Below are positions 7,141-32,564 of a stretch of DNA of 46,468 nt, piece after piece. The notes under the pieces were generated by a model that did not search any database, was not told the origin of the DNA, and saw only the letters and a program-made list of their open reading frames with translations. Location of the stretch: positions 1 to 46,468 of the forward strand of contig JALFTG010000038.1 in NCBI GenBank assembly GCA_022779345.1, written 5' to 3'. A program made the position numbers and the translations under genes. Source of the DNA: Oscillospiraceae bacterium. Lineage in GTDB: Bacteria > Bacillota > Clostridia > Oscillospirales > Oscillospiraceae. Within the stretch, counting starts at the first letter, position 1; each line of letters opens with the position of its first letter.

Positions 7141-7878
7141 TTACTCCCATCTGAAGGTTTTGACGGCGATGGTGCCGCAGATAACTGCAATGGCGGTCAG
7201 GGTGACCACCGGCATGGCCATATGATCATAACATCCCATGGACACGGATTTCAACAGCCTGATTCCCACGCCAAGGGGCATCCACCCGGCCACAGTCCGG
7301 AGGGCACCCGGAAAGACTTCCGCCGGGATGGTGGCCCCGGAGAACAGCAGCATGGGGAAATACAGCAGGCTGGTCGCCACATTCATGGATTTTGTGGTCC
7401 GGCACAGACTGGCAACCATGAGGCCGATGGAGAACATGGAGAGCATGGTCAGCAGCCAGACGGCAATATATACCAGCACATTTCCCTGCATCCGGTAGCC
7501 GAAGAACGCCACCGCTGCGACGGTCAGAATCAGGGTGGAGATGACGGCCATCACACCGCTGGCAAGGGTGTCACAGGCCAGTAGTCTCGCGGGAGAACAG
7601 GGACTGCAGTACATTCTCCGCAGCACGCCCCGGGAACGGTAATCCACAATGACGATGGGGATACTCATAAACGCGCTGCAGCAGATCCCCACGGTAGACA
7701 GGGCAACATAGGAACTTTGTGCATAAGTAAGACCGGAATCTGCGGCGCTCTTATTCCCGGCAATCACCGTAATCAGGATCAGCGTTACCAGCGGCATCAC
7801 CAGGTTAAACAGGATCACATCCGGTGAGCGGAAAAAGAGCTTCTGCTCCACCCCGTACATTCTCAGGAATCCCTTCAT
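7141..7878 (-). CDS. ABC-2 type transporter permease
   Basis: Multi-TM protein; SRGVLRRMYCSPCSPARLLACDTLASGVMAVISTL...LLYFPMLLFSGATIPAEVFPGALRTVAGWMPLG is typical of ABC-2 drug-export permeases. Confidence 0.9.
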   Translation of the reverse strand: MKGFLRMYGVEQKLFFRSPDVILFNLVMPLVTLILITVIAGNKSAADSGLTYAQSSYVALSTVGICCSAFMSIPIVIVDYRSRGVLRRMYCSPCSPARLLACDTLASGVMAVISTLILTVAAVAFFGYRMQGNVLVYIAVWLLTMLSMFSIGLMVASLCRTTKSMNVATSLLYFPMLLFSGATIPAEVFPGALRTVAGWMPLGVGIRLLKSVSMGCYDHMAMPVVTLTAIAVICGTIAVKTFRWE

Positions 7879-8600
7879 AACAGTTCCTCCTCTCCCATAC
7901 AGAACAGATACGCTTCCTCCAGGTCCTTCCGGCCCGATGCGGCGATGACTTCATCGACGGTGCCTTCCATGACCTTTTTTCCCGACCGGATGATGCACAC
8001 CCGGTCACACAGCGCTTCCGCCTCCTCCATGTAATGGGTGGTCAGGAAAATGGTCAGCCCCTGTGCCTTGAGCTGCTTCAGGGTACGCCACACCTCACGC
8101 CTTGCCACCACATCCAGTCCGGTGGTCAGCTCGTCCAGAAAGACGATCTCCGGGCTGCCGATCAGTGCCAGCACAACAGAAAGCTTCTACCGCTCCCCGC
8201 CGGAAATCCCGGACACGAAGTTTTTCCGGAGTGCGCCAAGTCCGAATTGCTCCAGCAGCTGCGGATAGTCTGCCGGGGCGGCATACAGCGAGGCATATTC
8301 GATGCACGCCTCTTCCACGGTGATGTTGGGCTGATACTCGGTATTCTGAAGCTGGACGCCGACCCGCTCAAACACCTGTTTTCTGTGTCTGGCGGCGTCC
8401 ATCCCCAGAATCTTCGCGCTGCCCCCGTCCGGTGCCTTCAATCCCAGGATCAGATCGATGGTGGTGCTTTTGCCCGCTCCGTTGTGCCCCAGCAGAGCAA
8501 AGACCTCGCCTTTTTGCACATCGAAGGACAGATCGTCCACCACCTTGCGCTCCCCGAACGATTTTGTCAGATTCCTCACGCTGACAGATGGTTCGCTCAT
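7875..8600 (-). pseudogene. ABC transporter ATP-binding protein, interrupted by an in-frame TAG at 8187-8189
   Basis: 5' part (start MSEPSVSVRNLTKSFGERK at 8600) has Walker A LLGHNGAGKSTT and ISGGER; TAG follows; the same frame continues KLSVVLALIGSPEIVFLDELTTGLD (Walker B). Both halves are one frame separated only by the stop. Confidence 0.85.
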
Positions 8601-8634
8601 AGAAAAATCCTCCTTGCTTTTCTTTGCAGGGAGG

Positions 8635-8666
8635 ATTGTATCATCTCCCCTTAAGGGGAGAGTCAA
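8635..8666 (-). promoter_or_regulatory. MerR-type promoter with 20-bp spacer filled by palindrome CTCCCCTTAAGGGGAG
   Basis: Minus strand TTGACT(8666-8661) - 20 bp - TACAAT(8640-8635); perfect 16-bp palindrome at 8645-8660 within the spacer. Confidence 0.85.
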
Positions 8667-8956
8667 GTACTTTTTCATGTATTTTGAATATGCGTTCCGG
8701 CTGAGACGGATACCGCATCAGAGGAGCCATGTTTCCTACAGACTGCGTTCCTCTTCTCTGCCTCCGTCTGTCCCGGAACAGATCACACGGTCGCAGGAAA
8801 TCCGGTAAGTGTTCAGGGAACACAACGCATACACACCGGCGACCACAAACGCGATCAGCACAGCCGTCTCCATGGCTTTCTGTCCGCTCAGGCCCTGGAA
8901 ATCCCAGATTGCATACACTTTCCCCAAATTACGCCCAGAGCTCCATTTCAGAGCGA

Positions 8957-8994
8957 CAAAAAATCCCTCAAAGCCTTGCGGCTCTGAGGGATTT
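8957..8994 (-). terminator. Terminator of tRNA-Val
   Basis: Minus: AAATCCCTCAGAGCCGCAAGGCTTTGAGGGATTTTTT immediately after the tRNA CCA end. Confidence 0.85.
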
Positions 8995-8997
8995 ATC

Positions 8998-9074
8998 TGG
9001 TGGACGATACAGGACTCGAACCTGTGACCCTCCGCACGTCAAGCGGATGCTCATACCAGCTGAGCTAATCGTCC
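8998..9074 (-). tRNA. tRNA-Val (anticodon GAC), CCA encoded
   Basis: Minus: GGACGATTAGCTCAGCTGGTATGAGCATCCGCTTGACGTGCGGAGGGTCACAGGTTCGAGTCCTGTATCGTCCACCA folds into a cloverleaf; anticodon loop TTGACGT. Confidence 0.95.
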
Positions 9075-9093
9075 GGATCAGCGAGCATGATGT

Positions 9094-9122
9094 ATTCTAC
9101 ACGATGCCCGCCAAATTGTCAA
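9094..9122 (-). promoter_or_regulatory. Sigma-A promoter of tRNA-Val
   Basis: TTGACA - 17 - TAGAAT on minus strand. Confidence 0.8.
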
Positions 9123-9149
9123 GGGGTATTTTGAAATTTTTTCAAAAAC

Positions 9150-9779
9150 TTATCGGCTGTACACTGTGACCGATGCGGAAATACCGTAGCAGGTGGCGGT
9201 GACGACTGCTTTGCCGCCGCCGCCCTGGCCAGTAACCAGACCAGTCTTGTCCACGGTGCAGACCGATTCATCGGAGCTGGTCCAGGTGATCTCATAGGTC
9301 TCACCATCCGGGGACAGCGGATACACGCTGGCAGCCAGCTGGACCTGATCCCCTGCGGGCGCAGTAAATTCAGAGATCTGATTGCCCATAAAGGTAATGG
9401 AGATACTGGTAACCGTCGGAGTGGGGGTGGGTGTTGGCGTCGGGGTAGGCGTGGGTGTCGGAGAGACATCCTCTGTCACCGGGGCGGACGGTGTGTTCTT
9501 GGCACTGCCGGGCTCGGTGTTCAGGCTGGTGGTGATCAGCACGATGGTGGCCAGGATGACGGCGACCACCAGAATCGCCGCAAAAGTCATCTGCCAGCGG
9601 GCATTGGCGGCGGCCTGTTCGCTGGAATAAGTGCCGGACACGGTGCCGGCGGTATTCCCCGGCGCACGCTGGGTCTGTTTCATTTTTCTGGTGCCGCATT
9701 TCGGGCAGCGGCTCTGCAGAGCCGAATATTCGGTGCCGCACTTGGGGCACCGCACACGGGGAATCAAATCCATCTGCAT
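9150..9779 (-). CDS. Zinc-ribbon / single-TM / Pro-Thr linker / Ig-like (Big_2-like) domain protein
   Basis: CPKCGTEYSALQSRCPKCGTRKM double CxxC; TM FAAILVVAVILATIVLI; SPTPTPTPTPTPTPTPT linker; Ig-like VYPLSPDGETYEITWTSSDESVCTVDKTGLVTGQGGGGKAVVTATCYGISASVTV. Confidence 0.85.
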   Translation of the reverse strand: MQMDLIPRVRCPKCGTEYSALQSRCPKCGTRKMKQTQRAPGNTAGTVSGTYSSEQAAANARWQMTFAAILVVAVILATIVLITTSLNTEPGSAKNTPSAPVTEDVSPTPTPTPTPTPTPTPTVTSISITFMGNQISEFTAPAGDQVQLAASVYPLSPDGETYEITWTSSDESVCTVDKTGLVTGQGGGGKAVVTATCYGISASVTVYSR

Positions 9780-9807
9780 TTCCTCCGTTTCTTTGGGATG
9801 TATTGCT

Positions 9808-9836
9808 ATTTTACTATTTTACCCACCATTCGTCAA
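9808..9836 (-). promoter_or_regulatory. Sigma-A promoter for zinc-ribbon gene
   Basis: TTGACG - 17 - TAAAAT on minus strand. Confidence 0.65.
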
Positions 9837-9897
9837 GTGCGGGCTTTTCTGCGTCCATTGCCGCAATATGTTTTTTATGAATTCTTAATAAACAACT

Positions 9898-9930
9898 GCG
9901 GAGGACGGCTCCCCATGAGCCATCCTCCGC
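9898..9930 (-). terminator. Hairpin downstream of ypeB, probable terminator
   Basis: GCGGAGGATGGCTC atggg GAGCCGTCCTCCGC on minus strand; the U-run is weak. Confidence 0.55.
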
Positions 9931-9948
9931 GGTTTTGCCGTACCGGGA

Positions 9949-11289
9949 TCAGGTGATCAGCGTCTTGGTGTCGGTCACGATCTCCACCTGCTTGCCGGTT
10001 TCGGCGCTGGCGTAGATCAGGCAGGTCTCCCCTTCTTCGGTGGTGCACCGGAAACGCCAGCACAGGTCCGTCCGGCCGCTCTCGGCGGTGTAATAGCTCA
10101 GCCCCACGGACTCCACGGTCAGACCCGCCGGAATGGCGGTGCGCTCCGCCTCCTCCCGGCTCACCGCCGGGTCCACAGGGGCGTGGTCCGTGTGGTTTTT
10201 CAGATACTCCGACGCGTTGAAGCTGAGGATGCGCCCGTCCTCCAGGGACACGCTCACCTTCACCGTGTCCGCCAGACTGGTGATCTCGTCGGCGGTGGAC
10301 ACATAGGTCACCTCCAGGATGCCCCAGTCCCGGCGCTCCTCATAGGCAGTCAGGTTTTTGTAGCCCGCCCGGGCCACGAAGTCCTCCGCCGCTTTCCGGG
10401 CCTCGTCCTCCGGGATGTTCTCCCCGGCGGCGGCACGGTCGCTCACATACAGCATGAGATACCCGCCCGCTTCCGTGACGGCCACGGTGGCGGTCTCCTG
10501 CGCCCGCTCCACGGAGAAATAATAGGCCGGGGCTTCATTTTTGGACTTTCCCATGGCTGTCACCGCGTTCTCCGGCACTTCCAGCAGGGTCAGGACCGTT
10601 TCCAGTGCTTCCTCCTCGTTCACAGGGGCGGCCCCCTGCAGGCCGGTCCAGGTCTCCGTGTGGTCTGAGGAGTATTTCCCCTCATACACCAGCTCCGGCG
10701 TCTGGGGAAAATCCCCCGCCAGCTGATACAGGCCGTCCTCCAGCACCGGGCCGGTCTCATCGGAGATATTGGCGGTCAGGCCTTTCAGTTCCGGGCCCCG
10801 GATGGTCATGGCCCCGGCACACAGGTCCTCATACATGGCGGACAGGGCGTCCGTCAGACCGCCGGTGATCTCCGCCAGCTGTCCGGCGGTCTGACGGTCC
10901 GCGTCGTCAAAGGCCACGCCGTCCGCCGCCGCGGCCACCTTGGCCCCGGCATAGTCCTCCACCTGGGAGATGAAGGACGCCACCTCCTCCAGCTCATACT
11001 GGTCCACCGGCAGGATGCTCAGCGCCGTGGATGCGCTCTGGGCGGAGGCGTACATCTGGGCGCACACCTTGCCCGTCACCACGGTGCCGGTGGCGTACTG
11101 CCCTTTCTGCAGGGCGGAGTCCAGGTCCTCCATGCTGGTGACCAGCATGGACATGGCCCGGCGGTATTCCGTGTCGTTATAGGCCCGGTAGGACCCGGCC
11201 GTGCCGAACAGGGCCCAGGCCGCCCCCGCCAGGGCGATTACCGCCGCCCCCGCATAGGATATGATCAGAATCTTGCTTTTCTTAGACAT
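9949..11289 (-). CDS. ypeB: Germination protein YpeB
   Basis: N-terminal TM; NDTEYRRAMSMLVTSMEDLDSALQKGQYATG; ELEEVASFISQVEDYA; PepSY-like C-terminal repeats. Matches YpeB architecture. Confidence 0.85.
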   Translation of the reverse strand: MSKKSKILIISYAGAAVIALAGAAWALFGTAGSYRAYNDTEYRRAMSMLVTSMEDLDSALQKGQYATGTVVTGKVCAQMYASAQSASTALSILPVDQYELEEVASFISQVEDYAGAKVAAAADGVAFDDADRQTAGQLAEITGGLTDALSAMYEDLCAGAMTIRGPELKGLTANISDETGPVLEDGLYQLAGDFPQTPELVYEGKYSSDHTETWTGLQGAAPVNEEEALETVLTLLEVPENAVTAMGKSKNEAPAYYFSVERAQETATVAVTEAGGYLMLYVSDRAAAGENIPEDEARKAAEDFVARAGYKNLTAYEERRDWGILEVTYVSTADEITSLADTVKVSVSLEDGRILSFNASEYLKNHTDHAPVDPAVSREEAERTAIPAGLTVESVGLSYYTAESGRTDLCWRFRCTTEEGETCLIYASAETGKQVEIVTDTKTLIT

Positions 11290-11359: not shown

Positions 11360-12007
11360 TTATGACAGCGTCAGCGTCTCCAGGGAAGCCAGCAGACGGA
11401 CGGCGGCGCCCTCCGCCGCTTCCGGCGGATAGCACAGCACCAGCGTCACACATCCGCCGTCCACATCAATGAGATAGGCGTCATAGATGCTGGCCATGGT
11501 CCTGCCCCCGATGTGCCGGGCGGGATTCTCCCCCAGCCGGATCTCCCCGTAGCTCTCGGTGCTCTGCATGGTGCCGTACTCCCGCAGGAGAGAGCCGGAC
11601 AGGTCCTTGGCCGTCCCGCCCGGGCGGAAGCCGATCTCGGCATAGATGCTGTCCCCGGCGTCGGTGGTGAGATAGCAGTATCCGTCGATCTCATTGACGG
11701 TGTACCGCTCCTTGTCCACATACAGGGAGAACTTCGGCCCGTCCGGGAACTGTCCCTCCACCAGCGTCATGGTCACCTGCTCGGACATTCCCTCCAGCTC
11801 CAGGGTGAATTCCCCGGTCTCAGGCGTAGTCTCCGGGTCCGGGATGTCCACAATGGTGCCGGGGATATCCGGCGTGGTCTGTGTCTCCTCCGCAGGCGTG
11901 GGTGTGGGCGTGGGTTCCGGGTCCGACCGGCCGCCGCAGCCGGCCAGCAGGCCCAGACACAGGCAGCCGGTGAGCAGCCCCGCTGCCCAGCGTTTTTTGA
12001 TTGTCAT
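11360..12007 (-). CDS. Putative lipoprotein of unknown function
   Basis: Signal peptide with lipobox LTGCLCLGLLAGCGG followed by a PTPTPTP linker. Start could be 12007 or a few codons upstream. Confidence 0.75.
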   Translation of the reverse strand: MTIKKRWAAGLLTGCLCLGLLAGCGGRSDPEPTPTPTPAEETQTTPDIPGTIVDIPDPETTPETGEFTLELEGMSEQVTMTLVEGQFPDGPKFSLYVDKERYTVNEIDGYCYLTTDAGDSIYAEIGFRPGGTAKDLSGSLLREYGTMQSTESYGEIRLGENPARHIGGRTMASIYDAYLIDVDGGCVTLVLCYPPEAAEGAAVRLLASLETLTLS

Positions 12008-12060
12008 GGCGTTCCTCATAAATCTGTGAAATGCTCCGGTCATCCGGGTATCCGGAAGAC

Positions 12061-13590
12061 TCAGAAATCATCCTCTTCTTCGTTCCGGATGGTGCGCTCG
12101 GCGGTGAGGGCCAGGATGCCCGCTTTCAGGCGGAACAGTGTCTCCTCCCGACCCAGAATGGAGCACAGCTCCACGGCGCCGCCGGGGGTCACCGCCCGGC
12201 CGGACACAGCAATCCGCACCGGGTACATGACGGCAGCGTTCTTCACGCCCAGCTGTCCGGCGATGGCCACCAGCACTGCGTGGATGCCCTCGTCCTCCCA
12301 CTTGATCAGGTCTGCCAGGACGGCCCGGGCGTACTTCAGCACCACCAGCGCCAGCTCCTGATTCACTCTGGACTTCTTGTGTTCATACAGATGCAGGGGA
12401 TACGGCTCCAGCTCATCGAAGAAATCCACTTTTTCCGGAATCTCCGTGAGCACCTCGGTGCGGGGCTGGAGAAGGGCCGCAATGCGGGCGGTGTCCAGGT
12501 TGGGATTCTTCACCGTCTGACGGATATAGGGCTCGGCCACGGCGGCAAACTGCTCGGGGGGCATGGCCTTGATATACTCCGCGTTCATCCACTTCAGCTT
12601 GTTCATGTCGAACACCGCCGGGGACTTGGAGATGCCGTGGACATCGAACACCCGGGCCAGCTCCTCCAGGGAGAAGATCTCCTGCTCACCGCCGGGGCTC
12701 CAGCCCAGCAGGGCCACATAGTTCAGAATGGCCTCCGGCAGATAGCCCTGGGCCAGCAGGTCCTCAAAAGAGGGATCGCCGTGGCGCTTGGACATCTTGT
12801 GCTGGCTGTCCCGCATGACGGGAGAGCAGTGGACATAGGTGGGAATCTCCCAGCCGAAGGCCTGGTACAGCAGGTTGTATTTGGGTGCGGAGCTGAGGTA
12901 CTCGCTGCCCCGGACCACATGGGTGATGCCCATGAGATGGTCGTCCACCACATTGGCAAAGTTATAGGTGGGCAGACCGTCGGTCTTGATGAGCACATTT
13001 TCGTCCAGCTCGTTGTTGGGCACGGTGATGTCCCCGAAGATCACATCGGAGAAGGTGGTGGTGCCCTCCTGGGGGATCTTCTGCCGGATGACGCAGGGCT
13101 CGCCTGCGTCCAGCCGGGCCTGAACCTCCTCTTTGGAGAGGCTGGCGCAGCTGCACTGGTGCTTTTTGATGACCTCGCCGTTGGGCAGGGTCACGGGCAC
13201 GGTGCCCTCATCCGCCTTGCAGAAGCAGCGGTAGGCGCCGCCCTTTTCAATGAGCAGGTCCGCGTATTTGCCGTAGATCTCCCGGCGCTCGGTCTGGATA
13301 TAGGGACCCACGGGGCCGCCCACATCCGGGCCTTCCTGCCAGTCCAGATGGCAGGTACGCAGGGTGTTGTAGATGATCTCCGTGGCGCCCTCCACGAACC
13401 GCTCCTGGTCCGTGTCCTCAATGCGGAGAATGAATTTGCCGCCCATGCTCTTTGCGATCAGCCAGGTGTACAGCGCCGTGCGCAGGTTGCCGATGTGCAT
13501 ATAGCCTGTGGGGGACGGGGCGAACCGGGTACGCACCTCCCCTTTCGGGATGCGCGCCTCCATTTCGTCAAACCATTTCTGATTTTCCAT
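12061..13590 (-). CDS. gltX: Glutamyl-tRNA synthetase
   Basis: VRTRFAPSPTGYMHIGNLRTALYTWLIAK (HIGH motif) ... HKMSKRHGDPS (KMSKR); start MENQKWF at 13590 with GGAGG RBS. Confidence 0.97.
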   Translation of the reverse strand: MENQKWFDEMEARIPKGEVRTRFAPSPTGYMHIGNLRTALYTWLIAKSMGGKFILRIEDTDQERFVEGATEIIYNTLRTCHLDWQEGPDVGGPVGPYIQTERREIYGKYADLLIEKGGAYRCFCKADEGTVPVTLPNGEVIKKHQCSCASLSKEEVQARLDAGEPCVIRQKIPQEGTTTFSDVIFGDITVPNNELDENVLIKTDGLPTYNFANVVDDHLMGITHVVRGSEYLSSAPKYNLLYQAFGWEIPTYVHCSPVMRDSQHKMSKRHGDPSFEDLLAQGYLPEAILNYVALLGWSPGGEQEIFSLEELARVFDVHGISKSPAVFDMNKLKWMNAEYIKAMPPEQFAAVAEPYIRQTVKNPNLDTARIAALLQPRTEVLTEIPEKVDFFDELEPYPLHLYEHKKSRVNQELALVVLKYARAVLADLIKWEDEGIHAVLVAIAGQLGVKNAAVMYPVRIAVSGRAVTPGGAVELCSILGREETLFRLKAGILALTAERTIRNEEEDDF

Positions 13591-13649
13591 ATCGTATGCC
13601 TCCATAAAACGAGTAGTCTCTCGTAAGTCTACATGATGTTCCACTGTAT

Positions 13650-13678
13650 ATATTATGGTCTCCCGGTAGGATTGTCAA
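13650..13678 (-). promoter_or_regulatory. Sigma-A promoter of gltX
   Basis: TTGACA - 17 - TAATAT on minus strand. Confidence 0.85.
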
Positions 13679-13716
13679 GATTTTCCCGCCGGGAGGAACA
13701 TTTTTCATACATGGGA

Positions 13717-13769
13717 TTGACAAACGGGTCTGACAATGATATATTGCATTTTGACAAAGAAAATTGTCA
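13717..13769 (+). promoter_or_regulatory. Sigma-A promoter of the XRE regulator with nested TGACAA/TTGTCA repeats
   Basis: TTGACA(13717-13722) - 17 - TATATT(13740-13745); downstream TGACAA-N6-TTGTCA inverted repeat. Confidence 0.8.
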
Positions 13770-13796
13770 TTCATTCAGGAAGGAGGCGGACAGCGG

Positions 13797-14006
13797 ATGC
13801 CGCTGAAAAACCGGTTGAAAGAGTACCGCGCCCGGCTGGGTGTGAATCAGCAGGAGATGGGGAAGCTGGCTGGGGTATCCCGGCAGACCATCAGTCTGAT
13901 TGAGCGGGGGGACTATTCCCCGTCCGTGTCGCTGGCCCTGAAGCTGGCAAAAATCTGCAATGCCAGCGTGGAGGATTTGTTTATTCTGGAGGAGGATGAA
14001 GTATGA
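13797..14006 (+). CDS. XRE-family HTH transcriptional regulator (small, Cro/CI type)
   Basis: MPLKNRLKEYRARLGVNQQEMGKLAGVSRQTISLIERGDYSPSVSLALKLAKICNASVEDLFILEED; AGGAGGCGG RBS. Confidence 0.95.
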   Translation: MPLKNRLKEYRARLGVNQQEMGKLAGVSRQTISLIERGDYSPSVSLALKLAKICNASVEDLFILEEDEV

Positions 14007-14794
14007 ACGAACAGGAACATCTGAATGAGATCCGGCAGGACAACAAAAAAGCGCTGCCGAAATTTCTGCTGATCATGGCCGCATCCCTGGTGCTGGGCGG
14101 TGTATTGGGCTTTTTCGGCGGCCGGCTGGGGGATCTGGGCATGAAAGAAACATTGGCTTCCGCTGCCGACTGGTTCTCCCGGTATGCAGCCCCCTGGCTG
14201 CTGTATGCCTGTACACTGGCATCTGTCCTTGGTTTTTTCGCCCAGACCCACCTTACCCGGAAAAGTCTGGCCCAGTGGGATGGAGAGGACGAAACCATGC
14301 TGAACGCCATTGACGGGAAACTGACCGTTTTCCTGTGGCTGCAGAGCATGGAACTGCTTCTGGGATATGCCCTGTTCCCCATGGCTGTCATGGGCAGTCT
14401 GCATCAGGACAATCCTGCTGCCGCTCTCATCTCCGCAGCAGCACTGCTCATCCTCATGGGATTCTGCACCGTTTCCCAGCAGAAAACCGTGGATGCCACC
14501 CGGCAGCTGTATCCGGAAAAGCAGGGTTCGGTCTATTCCACCGGATTCCAGAAAACCTGGCTGAACAGCTGTGATGAGGCGGAAAAGCGCATCATCGGTC
14601 AGTGCTGCTACCGGGTTTACCAGGCCGTGACCCGGACCTGTCTGGTGCTGTGGGTCCTGTTTGCCCTGGGGATCCTGCTGCTGGAGATGAGCGTTGTGCC
14701 CATGCTCACGGTATGTCTGATCTGGGGCGTGAGCCAGTGCGTGTATTACCGGAACGCCATCAAACTGTCCCGGCCCGGTACACTGGTGTCCTGA
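14003..14794 (+). CDS. DUF3169-like membrane protein
   Basis: Four or more TM segments, translationally coupled (ATGA) to the XRE regulator; layout resembles DUF3169 proteins. Confidence 0.75.
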   Translation: MNEQEHLNEIRQDNKKALPKFLLIMAASLVLGGVLGFFGGRLGDLGMKETLASAADWFSRYAAPWLLYACTLASVLGFFAQTHLTRKSLAQWDGEDETMLNAIDGKLTVFLWLQSMELLLGYALFPMAVMGSLHQDNPAAALISAAALLILMGFCTVSQQKTVDATRQLYPEKQGSVYSTGFQKTWLNSCDEAEKRIIGQCCYRVYQAVTRTCLVLWVLFALGILLLEMSVVPMLTVCLIWGVSQCVYYRNAIKLSRPGTLVS

Positions 14795-23273: not shown

Positions 23274-23975
23274 CTATTCCACTTTCAGCATCCGGTAGCC
23301 CACGCCGATATGGGTCTGGATATACTGCGGAGAGTCCGGGGTAGGTTCCAGTTTTTTCCGGAGGGTGGCCATGAATACCCGCAGGGAGGCAACATCGTTG
23401 TCCCAGCTCCGGCCCCAGATGTTCTGGGTCAGATAAGTGTGGGTGAGTACCTTGCCCACATTTCTGGACAGCAGGCACAGCAGCTTGTACTCAATGGGGG
23501 TCAGGTGCAGTTCCTGTCCGTCCAGCCAGGCGCAGCCGCCGGCATAGTCCACCCGGAGTTTTCCGTTGACAAACACAGATGAAGATGCGACGCTTTCGGT
23601 GTTCATATAGGACAGGCGCCGCTGGGTGGCCCGGAGCCGGGCAAGCAGCTCCTCCACAGAAAAGGGTTTGGTCAGATAGTCATCCGCACCGGCATCCAGC
23701 GCTTCGATCTTGTCCGTATCCTCGCTGCGGGCGCTGATGACAATGATGGGGAGATTGGACCAGGTGCGGATCTTGCGGATGATCTCCACGCCGTCCATAT
23801 CCGGCAGTCCCAGATCCAGCAGCACAATCTCCGGATTGTGAGAGGATGCCTCCAGCAGCGCCGTTTCCCCGTTGGCCGCCACCAGATACCGGTAATCATT
23901 GGTCCGAAGGGTGGTGGTGATCAGATTCCGTACCGGGGGATCGTCCTCCACCACCAGAATCAAGGGCTTATTCAT
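23274..23975 (-). CDS. kdpE: Response regulator KdpE
   Basis: ILVVEDDPPVRNLITTTLRTNDYRYLVAANGETALLEASSHNPEIVLLDLGLPDMDGVEIIRKIR; winged helix; 8-bp overlap with kdpD. Confidence 0.95.
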   Translation of the reverse strand: MNKPLILVVEDDPPVRNLITTTLRTNDYRYLVAANGETALLEASSHNPEIVLLDLGLPDMDGVEIIRKIRTWSNLPIIVISARSEDTDKIEALDAGADDYLTKPFSVEELLARLRATQRRLSYMNTESVASSSVFVNGKLRVDYAGGCAWLDGQELHLTPIEYKLLCLLSRNVGKVLTHTYLTQNIWGRSWDNDVASLRVFMATLRKKLEPTPDSPQYIQTHIGVGYRMLKVE

Positions 23976-26664
23976 GCAGTTCTACCTCCCCTGCCGGTAA
24001 TGTAAATGTGAATACGGTTCCATGGGGCACATTGTCAGACACTGTGATTGTCCCGCCATGGGCGGTGACGATGGACCGGCACAGGGACAGCCCCAGTCCC
24101 AGACTCCGGCGGCTGTCCGCCACCTGATTGGCCCCGCTGTAAAACATATCAAACACCCGCTCCTTCTGCTCGTCCGGGATCCCCGGCCCGTCATCGGACA
24201 CGGACACCGTCACCCAATGGTCCCGCTGCTCCGTATGAACGGCAATGACGGACCCGGGCGGGGTGTATTTGATGGCATTGTCCACCAGATTGATCACAAC
24301 CTGAACGATCAGTTTGGCATCAATCTGGGCCAGAATAAATTCCTGTCCGCTGGTCACCCGGATGATGTGTTCGGAGCACTTCCGGTCCACATGGCGCAAT
24401 GCCTCTGTGATGACCTCATCCATCAGTTCCGCGGACCGGTTCAGCTTCACCTGTCCCCCTTCCAGCCGGGTGACTGCCAGCAGATTTTCCACCAGGTTGA
24501 TCAGCCACATGGAGTCGTCATAGATGTCCTGGAAAATCCGCTCCCGGGTCTCCCGGTCCAGCTTTTCATCGCTGGCCAGAAGGGTACTGGCATTGCCGGA
24601 GATAGAGGTCAGCGGTGTGCGCAGATCGTGGGAGATGGCCCGCAGGAGATTAGACCGGAGCTGCTCATTTTTTGCCAGAATGGCCGCCTCTTCCTTTTCC
24701 CGGGCGTTGCGGATGTTCTCCATGGCCAAAGCGCACTCCCCCAAGATGGATAGCACCACACTGGTCTCAAAGGCATCCAGCGGCCGGTCCCCGATTTCGA
24801 TTCCCACCACGCCGTAAACCTGCTGATTCACCCGGATGGCCAGATACAGGCACCGGGCGCCAGACAGTGTGTCCGTGGTGGCACCGGCGTGCTTATTATT
24901 GTGCAGGACCCAGTCCGCCACCGTCTTCTCATATTCCGAAACAAGTTCGGTATACCCGCTGTCTTCTGTGCGGCAGACCTCCGGTTCCGCCAGATCATTC
25001 CCATTCAGGGGATAGAGCACCAGATCCCGGTGGAGCAGCTTCATGAGCTGTTCCGCCGCTGTGGACAGCATGGATGACTCATCCTGAGCCTTCTGCATGA
25101 GCTGGTTGGTTTCAAACAGGATTTTTGTCCGGGCCGCCGCCTGGGCGGACTGCCGGGCATTGTTCTTCAGCCGGGCTGCCAGGGAACCGGTGAGAAATGC
25201 GGAAAGAAACATAATGGCAAAAGTCGCCAGATAGCCCGGATCATAAAAATGAAAAGTGAACCGCGGCACCGTAAAGAAGAAATTGAACACCAGCACGCTG
25301 ACGACTGATGCCAGCAGGCTGCAGATCCGGTTGGTGGTGATCACGGACACCACCACCGCCCCCAGAATATACACCGTGATAATATTTGCCTCGGTGAATC
25401 CCATCCAGTAAAACAGGAACCCCACCAGAGTGGCCAGCAGAAGCACCAGTATCGTTTTCCCCACATCCCGCACGGGCATGGCATCCATCAGCGGGCGGCG
25501 GCGCTTTTCATAGCTGCTCCGTTCCGCATGGGCGTCCGGGATAATATGAATGTCCAGATTCGGTGCCATGGCAATCAGCTGTTCTGTCAGGGTGGGCTTG
25601 CTGAAAATGCTTTGTCTGGCGGCGGTGCTGCGGCCAATGACGATTCTCGATACGCCGGACAGCCGGGCAAATTCCGCAATCTGATAGGGCACATCGTCCC
25701 CGTAGGTGGTTTCCACCGTGGCTCCCAGTTGCCGTGCCAGATGGGTGTTTTCCCGCAGCCGTTTTTTGTCCTCATCCCGCATTGCCGGGAAATCCGGTGT
25801 CTCCACAAACAGAGCTGTCAGCGTTCCGCGGAACGCCTGGGCCATCCGGGCGGCGGTACGGATAATTTTAGCATTGGAGGGAGAAGACGACAGACAAACC
25901 AGAATATGCTCATCCGTGTGATACGACCCTCCGGTGCGGATACGGCCGTTTTCCGTCAGCCGGTTCACCCGGTCGGCGCACCGGCGCAGGGCAATCTCCC
26001 GCAGTGCCGTCAGATTTTCCAGCGAGAAAAAATTCGCCATTGCTCTGGCGGCCTGTTCTCCCGGATAGACATCCCCGCCCGCCAGCCGGTCCAGCAGTTC
26101 CTTCGGCTCGATATCCACCAGCTCCACCTGATCTGCTCCGTCAAATACCGAGTCCGGAATCCGCTCCCGGACCGGCACGCCGGTGATGGACGCCACCGTG
26201 TCGTTCAGACTCTCAATGTGCTGGACATTCACCGTGGTGTATACATCAATCCCAGCCCGGAGCAGTTCCTGCACATCCTGATACCGTTTCACATGGCGGC
26301 AGCCCGGAGCATTGGTGTGCGCCAGTTCATCCACCAGAATCAGTCCGGGCCGCCGGGTCAGGGCCGCATCCAGATCAAATTCCCGGAGCGTGATGTCTCC
26401 ATGACGCACCTGTTTCACCGGGAGCTGCTCCAGTCCCTGTACCAGCGCCATGGTCCGGGGCCGGGCATGGGGCTCGATGTATCCGGCAACCACATCCACG
26501 CCCCGCTCCACTGCCTGATGGGCCGCCTGCAGCATGGCATAGGTTTTGCCCACGCCGGCAGCGTAACCAAAGAAGATTTTCAGTTTTCCCGGGCGGGCAT
26601 CCCTGTCCGTCTCCTCCCGGATCGCCTGCAGCAGCTGGTCCGGATCCTGTCTTGGCAGCTCCAT
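23968..26664 (-). CDS. kdpD: Sensor histidine kinase KdpD
   Basis: KdpD N-domain PGKLKIFFGYAAGVGKTYAMLQAAHQAVERGVDVVAGYIEPHARP; USP-like segment; four TMs; HisKA LLRAISHDLRTPLTSISGNASTLL. Start MELPRQDPDQLLQAIREE at 26664 preferred. Confidence 0.95.
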   Translation of the reverse strand: MELPRQDPDQLLQAIREETDRDARPGKLKIFFGYAAGVGKTYAMLQAAHQAVERGVDVVAGYIEPHARPRTMALVQGLEQLPVKQVRHGDITLREFDLDAALTRRPGLILVDELAHTNAPGCRHVKRYQDVQELLRAGIDVYTTVNVQHIESLNDTVASITGVPVRERIPDSVFDGADQVELVDIEPKELLDRLAGGDVYPGEQAARAMANFFSLENLTALREIALRRCADRVNRLTENGRIRTGGSYHTDEHILVCLSSSPSNAKIIRTAARMAQAFRGTLTALFVETPDFPAMRDEDKKRLRENTHLARQLGATVETTYGDDVPYQIAEFARLSGVSRIVIGRSTAARQSIFSKPTLTEQLIAMAPNLDIHIIPDAHAERSSYEKRRRPLMDAMPVRDVGKTILVLLLATLVGFLFYWMGFTEANIITVYILGAVVVSVITTNRICSLLASVVSVLVFNFFFTVPRFTFHFYDPGYLATFAIMFLSAFLTGSLAARLKNNARQSAQAAARTKILFETNQLMQKAQDESSMLSTAAEQLMKLLHRDLVLYPLNGNDLAEPEVCRTEDSGYTELVSEYEKTVADWVLHNNKHAGATTDTLSGARCLYLAIRVNQQVYGVVGIEIGDRPLDAFETSVVLSILGECALAMENIRNAREKEEAAILAKNEQLRSNLLRAISHDLRTPLTSISGNASTLLASDEKLDRETRERIFQDIYDDSMWLINLVENLLAVTRLEGGQVKLNRSAELMDEVITEALRHVDRKCSEHIIRVTSGQEFILAQIDAKLIVQVVINLVDNAIKYTPPGSVIAVHTEQRDHWVTVSVSDDGPGIPDEQKERVFDMFYSGANQVADSRRSLGLGLSLCRSIVTAHGGTITVSDNVPHGTVFTFTLPAGEVELHE

Positions 26665-26848
26665 GTCGTTTCTCCTGTTCCCTTGCATCAGGTGATTTGT
26701 TACCGTGGGGTATTATAGCACCCCGGCCCGGGTTTTTCCATACTGGCGTCCGTGGCTCCCCGTCCAGCAGACGGGTAATGCTCCGGAGGAATCCATATCC
26801 CATCACAGCCATTGCCGCCAGGGTCAGCAGCATCCATACGCCCTCCAT
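26375..26848 (-). CDS. Small membrane ORF after the TrkA-like gene (N-terminal about 35-50 codons credible; remainder overlaps kdpD out of frame)
   Basis: GGGAGGCGG RBS then MEGVWMLLTLAAMAVMGYGFLRSITRLLDGEPRTPVW...; the frame stays open into kdpD. Confidence 0.4.
   Translation of the reverse strand: MEGVWMLLTLAAMAVMGYGFLRSITRLLDGEPRTPVWKNPGRGAIIPHGNKSPDAREQEKRHGAAKTGSGPAAAGDPGGDGQGCPPGKTENLLWLRCRRGQNLCHAAGGPSGSGAGRGCGCRIHRAPCPAPDHGAGTGTGAAPGETGASWRHHAPGI
26712..26740 (-). promoter_or_regulatory. Candidate internal sigma-A promoter upstream of kdpD
   Basis: Minus TGGAAA - 17 - TATAAT. Confidence 0.45.
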
Positions 26849-26866
26849 ATTTCCGCCTCCCGCTTT

Positions 26867-27514
26867 TCACATCCGGAAGCACCGCTGGAGATCCCGGTTT
26901 TCCCCCAGAACCAGCAGTGTCGCATCCTCTTCCAGGATCGTATCCGGCGTCACGGACAAATTCAGCTTCCCATGTTTCTTCACGCCCATGATATTGATGG
27001 CATATCTCTTGCGGATATCGACCTGTCCCACGGTGTGCCCTGCCCAGCCGTTGGGCACCGGCACTTCGAAAATGGCGTGGTCCTCATCCAGTTCGATGTA
27101 GTCCAGAATATGGTCGGCGCTGTACCGGATGGCGGTCCACTTGGCCAGCTGTTTCTCCGGATAGACCACCTCATCTGCTCCATTGCGCAGCAGAAACTTT
27201 TCCTGAATATCCCGTGCCGCCCGGGCCACCACCAACCTGGCTCCCAGCTCTTTCAGGAGCGAAGTCGTCTCCAGCGAACTCTGAAAATCATTGCCGATGG
27301 CCACAATGCAAACATCAAAGTTCCGCACACCCAAAGACGCCAGAAACTTCCGGTTCGTGCTGTCCCCAATCTGAGCATAGGTCACATAGGGAAGTACATC
27401 GTTCACCCGCTCCTCTATCTGATCCACCGCCATCACCTGATGGCCCAGCTGGTGCAGGTTCATGGCAATGTGCTTTCCGAAGCGGCCAAGGCCGATGAGT
27501 AAGATGGACTTCAC
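26867..27514 (-). CDS. TrkA/KtrA-family potassium channel/transporter regulatory protein (RCK_N + RCK_C)
   Basis: MKSILLIGLGRFGKHIAMNLHQLGHQVMAVDQIEERVND...AQIGDSTN...LVVARAARDIQEKFLLRNGADEVVYPEKQLA; RCK_C-like C-terminus. Confidence 0.93.
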   Translation of the reverse strand: MKSILLIGLGRFGKHIAMNLHQLGHQVMAVDQIEERVNDVLPYVTYAQIGDSTNRKFLASLGVRNFDVCIVAIGNDFQSSLETTSLLKELGARLVVARAARDIQEKFLLRNGADEVVYPEKQLAKWTAIRYSADHILDYIELDEDHAIFEVPVPNGWAGHTVGQVDIRKRYAINIMGVKKHGKLNLSVTPDTILEEDATLLVLGENRDLQRCFRM

Positions 27515-27601
27515 AACGCTCCATCTCCCTTCTTCCGATTCTTTTTGTCTTTACTATAAAGCGAAACGGATAAAGAGCGTGAAAGAGTTTTTCCCGCCAC
27601 A

Positions 27602-27619
27602 TTAAGATGGCGTTAAGAT
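27602..27619 (-). promoter_or_regulatory. Direct repeat ATCTTAA with 11-bp period upstream of the TrkA-like gene (candidate OmpR/KdpE-type box)
   Basis: Minus: ATCTTAACGCC ATCTTAATGTG. Confidence 0.4.
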
Positions 27620-27636
27620 TGTGAAAATCATTACGC

Positions 27637-28236
27637 TCACAGAATACCGTCCAGCATCAGATTGACTTCCAGCACATTCACGGTCTGCTCGCCGAATACG
27701 CCGAGGAAGCGGCCCCGGGTGCATTGTGCGATGATGTCCCGCACCTCCGACTCCGGGATGCCCCGGGCCTGCACGATCCGGGTCACCTGATACTCCGCCG
27801 CCGCCGGTGAGATATGGGGATCCAGCCCGCTGCCGGAACAGGTCACCAGATCCACGGGAATCGCGGCATCATCCATCTCCGGATTGGCTGCCCGGAGCCG
27901 GTCCACCCGCTCAGCCACCAGTGCTTCGTATTCTCCGCTGGCGGGCGACAGGTTGGACGGAGCGGCATACGCCACCGGATTTCCGTCTCCATCCTGAAAG
28001 GTGGTCACATCCAGATTCATGATGCGCCCCCACAGATACCCGTCATCCGTGTACTGCTGTCCCAGGAGGGCACAACCGTATATTTTGCCGTCCACTTCGA
28101 TGAGACTGCCGCTGGCCTGCTCCGGAAACAGCAGCTGGGCCAGACCGGTGACCACACCGGTATAGAGCAACCCGCAGATCACAGTAAACAGCAGGAAACA
28201 CACAGTCGCCCGGGACAATAAGGTTTTGATTTGCAT
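27637..28236 (-). CDS. kdpC: Potassium-transporting ATPase subunit C
   Basis: LLYTGVVTGLAQLLFPEQASGSLIEVDGKIYGCALLGQQYTDDGYLWGR; VDLVTCSGSGLDPHISPAAAEYQVTRIVQARG. Confidence 0.95.
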   Translation of the reverse strand: MQIKTLLSRATVCFLLFTVICGLLYTGVVTGLAQLLFPEQASGSLIEVDGKIYGCALLGQQYTDDGYLWGRIMNLDVTTFQDGDGNPVAYAAPSNLSPASGEYEALVAERVDRLRAANPEMDDAAIPVDLVTCSGSGLDPHISPAAAEYQVTRIVQARGIPESEVRDIIAQCTRGRFLGVFGEQTVNVLEVNLMLDGIL

Positions 28237-28249
28237 GGCAGATTCCTCC

Positions 28250-30318
28250 TCATACCAGACCCGTCAGGGTCAGCAGTACATCAATGAGTTTGATAAAGAT
28301 GAACGGTGCTGCAAGGCCGCCCAGGCCGTAGACCAGCAGATTCCGGGACAGCAGCTTTCCGGCGGACACCTCCCGGTATTTCACACCTTTCAGTGCCAGC
28401 GGGATCAGCGCGATGATGATCAGAGCGTTATAAATGATGGCGGACAGCACCGCGCTCCGGGGGGAGTGCAGGCCCATAATATTCAGGGCGGACAACCCCG
28501 GATACAGTCCGGTAAACAGGGCCGGGATGATCGCAAAATACTTGGCCACATCATTTGCAATGGAGAAGGTGGTCAGGCTGCCACGGGTCATGAGCAGTTG
28601 TTTACCGATTCGCACAATGTCAATCAGTTTGGTGGGGCTGGAGTCCAGATCCACCATGTTGCCCGCCTCCTTGGCCGCCTGAGTGCCGGAGTTCATGGCC
28701 ACTGCCACATCAGCCTGGGCCAGGGCCGGGGCATCGTTGGTACCATCGCCGGTCATGGCCACCAGATGGCCTTTCGCCTGGTATTCCCGGATCATCTTCA
28801 GCTTTCCCTCCGGGGTCGCTTCGGCCAGAAAGTCGTCCACCCCGGCCTCCGCTGCAATGGCAGCCGCGGTAATGGGATTGTCGCCGGTGATCATAATGGT
28901 CCTGATCCCCATTTTCCGCAGATCGGCAAACTTTTCCTTTACCCCGTCCTTGATAATATCTTTCAGGTAAATTACCCCGAGGATCCGGTGGTCTTTGGCA
29001 ACTACCAACGGTGTTCCGCCCCTGGTGGCAATGGATTTCACCACCTGATCACATTCCCCGGAATAGGTGCCGCCAGCCTGGGTGACATACGCCTGCATGG
29101 CATCGGCCGCGCCTTTCCGGATCTCACAGCCGTCATAATTCACCCCGCTCATGCGGGTCTGTGCGGTAAAGGGAATGAACTGCATCCCCTTGTCCTGCAG
29201 GGTGCGGCCGCGGATTCCAAATTGTTCCTTGGCAAGAATCACCACACTGCGCCCCTCCGGAGTCTCATCCGCCAGAGAGGACAGCTGCGCCGCATCCGCC
29301 AGTTCCCGATATCCGTACCGTCCACAGGGATGAATTCCACTGCCTGCCGGTTGCCCAGGGTGATGGTGCCGGTCTTATCCAGCAACAGCACATCCACATC
29401 CCCGGCCGCTTCGATGGCACGACCGCTCATGGCCAGTACATTTGCCTGGTTCAGACGGCTCATGCCAGCGATGCCAATAGCGGACAGCAGCGCACCGATG
29501 GTAGTGGGTGCCAGGCGCACCAGCAGGGCCACCAGCGTGGTCACAGAAGTGGGGTTTTCAATTCCCGCCTGTCTGGCGGAGAACGCGGAATAGGTGTACA
29601 ACGACACGGTCACCAGGATAAAAATGATGGACAGTGCCACCAGAAAAATCTGCAGGGCAATCTCGTTGGGAGTCTTTTTCCGGGAGGCTCCCTCCACCAT
29701 GGCAATCATCTTATCCAGAAAGCTCTCTCCTGCCTCATTGGTGACCCGTACCACGATCCAGTCGGACAGCACGGTGGTGCCGCCGGTGACAGCGCTTCGG
29801 TCGCCGCCTGCCTCCCGGATCACCGGGGCGGATTCGCCGGTGATGGCACTTTCATCCACAGAGGCAGCCCCTTCGATAATCTCCCCATCGGCGGGGATCT
29901 GTTCCCCGGCCCGGACGATCACCAGATCCCCCTTTTTCAGCAGGGCCGAAGCAACAACAGTCACCTTGTCTTTCTCAGCAGCCGAGGGAATCCGATGGGC
30001 ATCCACATCTTTCCGGGACGCCCGCAAAGTATCCGCCTGGGCCTTGCCCCGGCCTTCCGCAATGGCCTCGGCAAAATTGGCAAACAGCACGGTGAACCAC
30101 AAAATCACCGCGATCGCAAGCGTATAGCCGCCGGGGGCGTCCTGGATGCCAAGCAGGGACAGTATCCACAGTCCGGTCGTCAGGATGGCAGAAACAAACA
30201 CCAGAAACATCACCGGGTTTTTCGCCTGAGTTCCGGGTTTGAGTTTGATAAAAGAATCTTTGATGGCCCGGCCGATCATTTTTCGATCGGCAAAGCCGTT
30301 TTGGGCTTTTGTATGCAT
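28250..30318 (-). pseudogene. kdpB: Potassium-transporting ATPase subunit B, split by an apparent 1-nt deletion near 29307
   Basis: 5' frame (start MHTKAQNGF at 30318) reads ...[26 protein letters not shown] then goes out of frame. The alternate frame continues [34 protein letters not shown]...[23 protein letters not shown]. Confidence 0.9.
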
Positions 30319-30331
30319 GGATAACCCCTCC

Positions 30332-32141
30332 TTACCCCATCTGGAAGAACTCAGCAATTGGTCCCAGTGCCAGCGCCGGGAAGAAGCTGATGGCACCGAT
30401 CAGCAGTACCACAAAAATCAGCAGGAACGCAAACATGGCGTTGGTGGTGGACAGCGTCCCGGCAGAAACAGCTACTTTCTTCTTATTGGCCAGGCTTCCC
30501 GCAATGGCCAGCGTACCGGTCACCGGCAGGAACCGGGCAAACAGCATCACCAGTGCGATGCTCACATTCAGAAATACGGTGTTGGCATTGAATCCGGCAA
30601 AGGCGGAACCGTTGTTGCCGGCCCCGGAAGTATAGGCGTACAGCATCTCCGAAAAACCGTGGGCGCCGGAATTGGTCAGGCTGTCCGCCACGGACGGTAT
30701 CACTGCCGCAATACCGCTGCCCGCCAGAATGGCAATCGGGGTAGCCAGGCAGACCAGCACGGACCATTTCATTTCATAAGGTTCAATTTTCTTTCCCAGG
30801 AATTCCGGTGTCCGGCCCACCATCAGGCCCGCTATAAACACCGTCAGAATGGCAAAGGCCAGCATTCCGTACAGGCCGCATCCCACACCGCCGAAGATGA
30901 CCTCCCCCAACTGCATCTGCAGCATCTGGATCATCCCGCCCAGCGGCGTATAGCTGTCATGCATGGAGTTAACGGAACCGTTGGATGCCGCGGTGGTGAA
31001 AACGCTCCAGGTGGAAGAGGCCGCAATGCCGAACCGGGTCTCCTTACCCTCCATGTTTCCACCGGCCTGATTGACGGTGGAAAGATCCACAGCCCCGTTT
31101 TGCGCCAGCTGGGGCGTTCCCGCCTGCTCACTGACGCCCACAACGCCCAGACAGACCACCAGCATCAGCAACATGGCCAGGAAGATGGCAATGCCCTGCT
31201 TTTTGTTATCCACAGCCTTCCCGAAAGTGAAGCACAATGCTGCCGGGATCAGCAGCAGAGAGAGCATTTCAATCAGGTTTGTGAATGCGCTGGGGTTTTC
31301 CAGGGGATGGGCGGAGTTGACCCCCATGAAGCCGCCGCCGTTGGTGCCGGTCTGCTTGATTGGCCACCTGGCTGGCCGCCGGTCCCATGGGAACAAACTG
31401 CTCCGTCACGATTTGGGCGTCAACCGGTTCTCCGTCTACCGTTACCTCCCCATTTTCCGTGTCAATTACGGCATCTTCTATGACTTCTCCCTCCGCAGTC
31501 ACCGCAATGGGCTCCAGCAGAGGGACAGTCTCGCCGCCTTTGAAGTTCTGGATTACGCCGCCGCTGACCAGAAGCAGGGCGATCACCAGATTCAGCGGGA
31601 GCAGAATGCGGAGCACAATCCGGGTCAGATCCACCCAGAAACTGCCCAGTCCCGCAGATTTCACCTGAATAAATCCCCGGATCAGGGCAAACAGTACCGC
31701 AATACCCGTGGCGGCAGACACAAAATTCTGCACAGTCAGCCCCAGCGCCTGGGTCAGGTAACTGAGGGTGGATTCCCCGGAATAGGCCTGCCAGTTGGTG
31801 TTTGTCACAAAGCTGGCGGCAGTGTTGAATGCCAGATCCCATGTTACGCCCGGCAGGTGCTGCGGATTGCCCGGCAGCGCTCCCTGCAGCAGCTGGAGAA
31901 GAAACAGAAACACCAGTCCGATCCCGGAAAAGAGCAGTACGCTGAGCGCATACTGTTTCCAGTTCATCTGTTCTTCCGGGTCGATCCGCATGACCCTGTA
32001 AACCGCCCGCTCGCATGGGGACAGTATACCCGAAAGAAGGGTATGCTCCCCGTTCATGACCTTTTTCATGTAACTGCCCAACGGAACGGCCAGTACAATC
32101 AAAATGGCCAGATACAGCACATACTGGATCACGCTGTTCAT
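30332..32141 (-). pseudogene. kdpA: Potassium-transporting ATPase subunit A, split by an apparent 1-nt insertion near 31360
   Basis: 5' frame MNSVIQYVLYLAILIVLAVPLGSYMKKVM...QFVPMGPAASQVA then garbage. The alternate frame continues [33 protein letters not shown]..., the conserved KdpA selectivity motif. Confidence 0.9.
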
Positions 32142-32230
32142 GTGTGGTCATCCCCTTTCATCAAAATGTACACATACCACAGCAGCATCGCTGCGGCACA
32201 CAGTCCTGTGACTGCAATCACGCCTTGCAC
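32138..32230 (-). CDS. kdpF: KdpF small subunit (30 aa), absent from the ORF track
   Basis: AAGGAGG RBS, GTG start, (M)QGVIAVTGLCAAAMLLWYVYILMKGDDHT, stop overlapping the kdpA ATG (ATGA). Confidence 0.85.
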   Translation of the reverse strand: MQGVIAVTGLCAAAMLLWYVYILMKGDDHT

Positions 32231-32275
32231 ACTATCAACCTCCTTCGATCTGTCATGGCGTCGGAATGTGTCCGC

Positions 32276-32467
32276 TTAGAAATACCCCAAAGGCCCGGAC
32301 AGGGGCATGATCAGGAGCAGAGCGCCCGCACACACGCACAGCAGCACCAGCAGCGGCATTCCGATCAGGACGAACAGATATCCCAGCACCGGATGGTGCC
32401 ACAGGAACCATTCAGCCCGGGTATCAAACCGGCGTTCCGCTTTCTGAATCTTTTTTGTGATGTGCAT
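32276..32467 (-). CDS. 63-aa small membrane protein upstream of kdpF
   Basis: MHITKKIQKAERRFDTRAEWFLWHHPVLGYLFVLIGMPLLVLLCVCAGALLLIMPLSGPLGYF; GGGGGAG RBS; two hydrophobic stretches. Confidence 0.7.
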   Translation of the reverse strand: MHITKKIQKAERRFDTRAEWFLWHHPVLGYLFVLIGMPLLVLLCVCAGALLLIMPLSGPLGYF

Positions 32468-32564
32468 GTCGCTCCCCCTCTTTCATTCCGATGGACTGAG
32501 TATACGCCCCGGCGTGTTAAAACAGGAAAAGGGAAACTGACAGGAGATTAAAATGCCATAAAGG

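Follow-up and report, generated by a model that had tools for sequence, protein, structure and literature searches.

Two genes of a kdp operon in an Oscillospiraceae bacterium, kdpA and kdpB, are each interrupted by a change of reading frame, and the question that the locus raises is whether the organism has recently lost this pump or whether the draft assembly carries two single-base errors. The window analyzed here, 46,468 nucleotides long, corresponds to an entire contig, G000:C160, from a draft genome of 1.92 Mb in 188 contigs (93.5% complete). The evidence set out below leads us to regard recent, ordinary pseudogenization of a dispensable accessory pump as the probable explanation.

Layout and origin of the kdp block

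On the minus strand, the genes follow one another in the order small membrane ORF, kdpF-like peptide, kdpA, kdpB, kdpC, a trkA-like gene, kdpD, and kdpE. Homologues of KdpA, KdpB, KdpC, KdpD, and KdpE were all matched by NCBIfam and Pfam profiles, and the gene order is the same as in relatives. The features are as follows.

23274..32540: the kdp block as a whole (about 9.3 kb); in congeners G001 and G002, the genes that flank it here have no such block between them
~32141..32233, minus strand: kdpF-like membrane peptide of 30 residues, read from the sequence, its stop overlapping the kdpA start
31269..32141, minus strand: 5' reading frame of kdpA, 290 aa, of which about 260 are KdpA residues (the first filter motif, TNTNWQ, is among them) and the final ~30 are unrelated
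31355..31366, minus strand: frame-change site of kdpA, where one extra base is present relative to the uninterrupted frame of relatives
30342..31360, minus strand: 3' part of kdpA in a second frame, with filters 2 to 4 and the C terminus
29239..30318, minus strand: 5' reading frame of kdpB, 359 aa, including the DKTGT phosphorylation motif, the last ~20 residues being out of frame
29301..29312, minus strand: frame-change site of kdpB, where one base is missing relative to the uninterrupted frame of relatives
28250..29305, minus strand: 3' part of kdpB in a second frame, matched by the kdpB profile
27637..28236, minus strand: kdpC, open full length, above the cutoff for NCBIfam NF001454 and TIGR00681
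26865..27514, minus strand: trkA-like (KtrA-type) gene within the block, open, with Pfam TrkA_N and TrkA_C
23968..26688, minus strand: kdpD, sensor kinase, open full length, with profile matches
23274..23975, minus strand: kdpE, response regulator, open full length, with profile matches

At the sequence level, the breaks are limited to kdpA and kdpB. The sequence-only reading had taken kdpC, kdpD, kdpE, and kdpF to be intact, which was borne out for the first three and in part for kdpF, where the 30-aa peptide is present and is matched by no Pfam family. The KtrA-type gene has no adjoining membrane partner, and genes of the same type occur in the kdp loci L015, L020, and L023. Upstream of kdpF, a 63-aa membrane ORF (32279 to 32467, minus strand), again with no Pfam family, shares 46 to 48% identity with ORFs in the same place in L015, L022, and L023. 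No riboswitch was found upstream of kdp in an Rfam scan.

The block is flanked by a FabG-like and a PSP1-like gene, which in G001 and G002 are neighbors with a short intergenic hairpin between them, and KdpA is missing from the 3 congeners, as it is from the 33 other genomes of the family in our first sample. We infer the direction of this change: the simplest reading would have the block inserted in its own lineage, with loss in the congeners as a possible alternative. The nearest KdpA sequences (82 to 86% identity over the 3' part) belong to other gut Clostridia, including Faecalibacterium hattorii and several uncultured Lachnospiraceae. The GC content of the block equals that of the genome sample (0.577 versus 0.579), and composition therefore gives no mark of foreign origin.

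The two frame changes

The kdpA gene runs on the minus strand from 32141 to 30342, and its frame switches at about 31360 to 31362, just ahead of the second K+ selectivity-filter motif. The Pfam KdpA profile is matched in two frames, at profile positions 2 to 219 (32117..31362) and 220 to 548 (31360..30344), and the NCBIfam kdpA model (TIGR00680) is matched in two pieces, at 5 to 225 and 229 to 558. The change is of the one-base-gain type; past the break, the 5' frame runs through its unrelated residues to the stop at 31269. Of the filter motifs, the first lies in the 5' piece, while the second, TNGGG, starts 5 codons past the break. In all 34 clostridial loci compared (L010 to L043), one open kdpA frame crosses the site, mostly at residues 261/262. 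These results uphold the earlier proposal of a one-nucleotide insertion near the selectivity filter, the change falling within the interval that had been named (31355 to 31366). Since the KdpA pore consists of four TM1-pore-TM2 repeats (PMC6255902), the 5' product could provide only the first of the four filter segments.

The second break lies 2.05 kb from the first, in kdpB (minus strand, 30318 to 28250), where the frame switches at about 29305 to 29311, shortly past the DKTGT motif, and where the NCBIfam kdpB model is matched at 4 to 328 in one frame and at 351 to 675 in the other; the earlier observation that kdpB is also disrupted 2 kb away is thereby confirmed. The break falls in the part that we take, from general knowledge of P-type ATPases, to begin the nucleotide-binding domain. 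Relatives covering this site are continuous there. Elsewhere in the gene, kdpB frame changes were seen in L011 (~9700), L018 (~10300), L042 (~7400 to 10500), and L050 (~9800), the last of which is outside the Clostridia, and the kdp locus of L042 has several lesions; these frame changes may be either assembly error or real decay. At 29239 to 29245 (minus strand), the stop of the first kdpB frame and a GTG start belonging to the second share bases (GTGA), with a GGAGG-like stretch ahead of them, an arrangement that is probably a coincidence of conserved codons.

Neither KdpA nor KdpB has a continuous reading frame, and the operon was not classed as a working pump; judging from the reading frames, a pump without whole kdpA and kdpB cannot be expected to work. 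Homologues intact elsewhere (34 of 34 for kdpA) beside an interrupted copy here are what is looked for in a pseudogene.

Real loss or consensus error

The pair of breaks could also be explained if the consensus of this draft metagenome assembly were wrong locally at two places, because of low depth or mixed strains at the accessory block, the pump in the organism being intact and working. We consider this explanation possible, without thinking it probable. It would be in keeping with a genome in 188 contigs, with the uneven depth that an accessory block can show relative to the rest, and with the position of the single-base indels at short runs of 2 to 3 identical bases. If the consensus were prone to such errors throughout, further frameshifts would be expected elsewhere, and the genome was surveyed for them by setting 610 kb of it against two congeners, G002 (1.55 Mb) and G001 (40 kb), and taking the best-scoring frame at each place. 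This method was adopted because earlier surveys with greedy longest ORFs had yielded about 8 candidates per genome, which on inspection were antisense shadow frames and start extensions in a GC-rich genome. The survey reached 290 kb of conserved coding sequence, which takes in kdpC, trkA, kdpD, and kdpE of the block itself and most of the contig's other genes. Its one raw candidate (L099, ~12118 to 12338) lies in a stretch that on inspection reads as noncoding; no credible frameshift besides those in kdp was found in the 290 kb, at a sensitivity of 67% (40 of 60 simulated single-base indels recovered), which argues against consensus errors. As a positive control, the proteins of relatives recovered both kdp breaks. 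Effective coverage thus amounts to ~193 kb with zero events, giving a 95% upper bound of 1 per 64 kb; at that rate, kdpA and kdpB, 3.86 kb together, would contain at most 0.06 events, and two would arise by chance with a probability of ~0.002. The raised assembly-wide frameshift rate by which assembly or consensus error would be recognized was therefore not found, and a high indel rate across the assembly is excluded; an error pocket confined to the kdp locus falls outside that exclusion.

The constraint on the broken genes bears on their age. The pN/pS values of the four kdpA and kdpB pieces against their nearest relatives (0.10 to 0.19; a kdpD comparison, with only 4 sequences, was left out) are within the range among the relatives themselves. 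At codons invariant in all other relatives, 3 of 566 differ here, compared with 0 to 18 in other complete relatives, while 20 neutral substitutions were computed to produce already ~6 such changes. A strong signal of purifying selection persists in kdpA and kdpB, with no sign of relaxed constraint after inactivation in either test, and any loss must therefore be very recent. Normal constraint on either side of each break would fit a very recent double lesion and, equally, consensus errors. It also makes a demand on pseudogenization: without other decay, the two indels would have to be nearly simultaneous or to precede it, and consensus errors would look alike. A second copy from the same species was sought and not found. 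The sequence-only reading had offered recent loss of the pump under relaxed selection or clustered indel errors; both readings are still live, with real loss favored, but relaxed selection does not agree with the normal pN/pS values and invariant sites.

We favor a real loss because (i) the breaks are limited to kdpA and kdpB, against none in the effective coverage of the survey; (ii) the pump is an accessory block missing from congeners; and (iii) other family members show the same outcome, with independent kdpA remnants in G065 and G107 beside intact kdpD-kdpE. The genome contains two further TrkH/KtrB-type genes, each adjoining a TrkA-type gene. From these observations, we infer that the indels are present in the organism and not merely in the consensus, as well as the likely reason for the loss. 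A complete kdpFABC-trkA-kdpDE block would have been present in this lineage and not in its congeners, most simply by insertion between the FabG-like and PSP1-like genes; very recently, kdpA and kdpB would each have acquired one single-base frameshift; with no KdpA having all four filter segments and no KdpB having a joined nucleotide-binding domain, the pump would be dead; and since two other TrkH/KtrB-type K+ uptake systems are kept, its loss may have been cheap when K+ was plentiful.

Two further readings were weighed and set aside. That the breaks are bypassed or used, by programmed frameshifting or by producing KdpA and KdpB in two pieces from separate starts, as in the TrkA of Thermotoga maritima, appears very improbable. 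The GGAGG-like stretch, GTG start, and GTGA overlap of kdpB do recall the overlapping TTG/TGA and internal ribosome site of TM1088 (PMC4380455), but the GGAGG stretch stems from conserved PEGR codons, ~20 conserved KdpB residues would go missing, kdpA has no comparable stop-start overlap, and the genes of relatives are continuous and carry no frameshift signal. Reversible on/off switching of the frame by slippage is the least credible reading, as the first analysis had already judged from the lack of long homopolymers: single-base changes are formally reversible, but neither site has a homopolymer of more than 3 bases or a tandem repeat, two genes would have to switch independently, and relatives have no repeat-based break at the site.

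Retention of the sensor and comparison with known systems

Beyond this genome, some KdpA match was found in 15 of 301 family genomes (own genome counted, one match weak), and 15 of the 29 family genomes in the same sample with KdpD over the cutoff have no KdpA match, some of these genomes being incomplete and some of the 29 KdpD proteins falling into a group with lower scores that perhaps was never associated with a Kdp pump. In G107 (L251:4825-12744), two stops interrupt kdpA, and the final residues of its last open stretch resemble the KdpB C terminus; no KdpB or KdpC match follows this remnant, KtrA/KtrB-like genes lie between it and kdpD, and kdpD and kdpE are whole. In G065 (L250:6416-10824), only pieces of kdpA and kdpC are left, adjoining whole kdpD and kdpE. 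Pump decay with sensor retention is thus recurrent in the family (here, G065, and G107). It is conceivable, though on balance doubtful, that KdpDE, which repeatedly outlives the pump in the family, has been recruited to regulate different K+ or osmotic genes, e.g., neighboring KtrA/KtrB; the system would then have been retained for another job. As separate observations, G090 and G282 have KdpC with no KdpA match, and in the complete genome of Hungatella hathewayi DSM 13479 (L038, ~11991 to 14687), an in-frame stop divides kdpD into two ORFs.

If the lesions are real, the locus would show how the loss of a pump begins in a gut commensal, with two pump genes broken and the rest still constrained. 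Together with the family remnants, it would form a short natural series, from intact through freshly broken to largely deleted with the sensor still in place, that bears on why a K+ sensor outlasts its pump. If they are errors, they would caution that two bases in such drafts can cost metabolic reconstructions a transporter. The interest of the case is modest, and the recurring survival of KdpDE without the pump is the one lead worth following.

Several known systems can be set beside this locus. The TrkA of Thermotoga maritima, with its two subunits TM1088A/B (PMC4380455), resembles the kdpB break in its two frames, stop/start overlap, and ribosome-site-like stretch; there, however, both products are made and assemble, whereas here conserved residues would be lost and kdpA has no such arrangement. 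E. coli KdpFABC with KdpDE (PMC6255902) has the same subunits, the DKTGT and filter motifs, and the sensor and regulator downstream, and the profile matches here span nearly the whole of KdpA and KdpB once both frames of each are combined; unlike in E. coli, a frame change divides each of kdpA and kdpB, and a KtrA-type gene lies between kdpC and kdpD. The decayed kdp genes of Francisella tularensis LVS and Schu S4 (PMC2813290) are likewise broken by single-base insertions, those in kdpB and kdpD of LVS having been resequenced, with Trk as the remaining K+ system. The lesions lie in kdpB, kdpD, and kdpE in LVS and in kdpA in Schu S4, so that regulator genes are broken there, whereas kdpD and kdpE are open here and the lesions are known from the assembly alone. 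In Campylobacter jejuni 11168, kdpA is a pseudogene (PMC10077673), again in a gut bacterium retaining another K+ importer (Ktr), and a C. jejuni kdpA mutant, unlike ktr mutants, was normal in colonization of the mouse gut (PMC5438104); in that species, strain-level variation is documented. Closest to home, the remnants in G065 and G107 share with this locus broken pump genes beside a whole kdpD and kdpE, with large deletions there as opposed to only two single-base lesions here.
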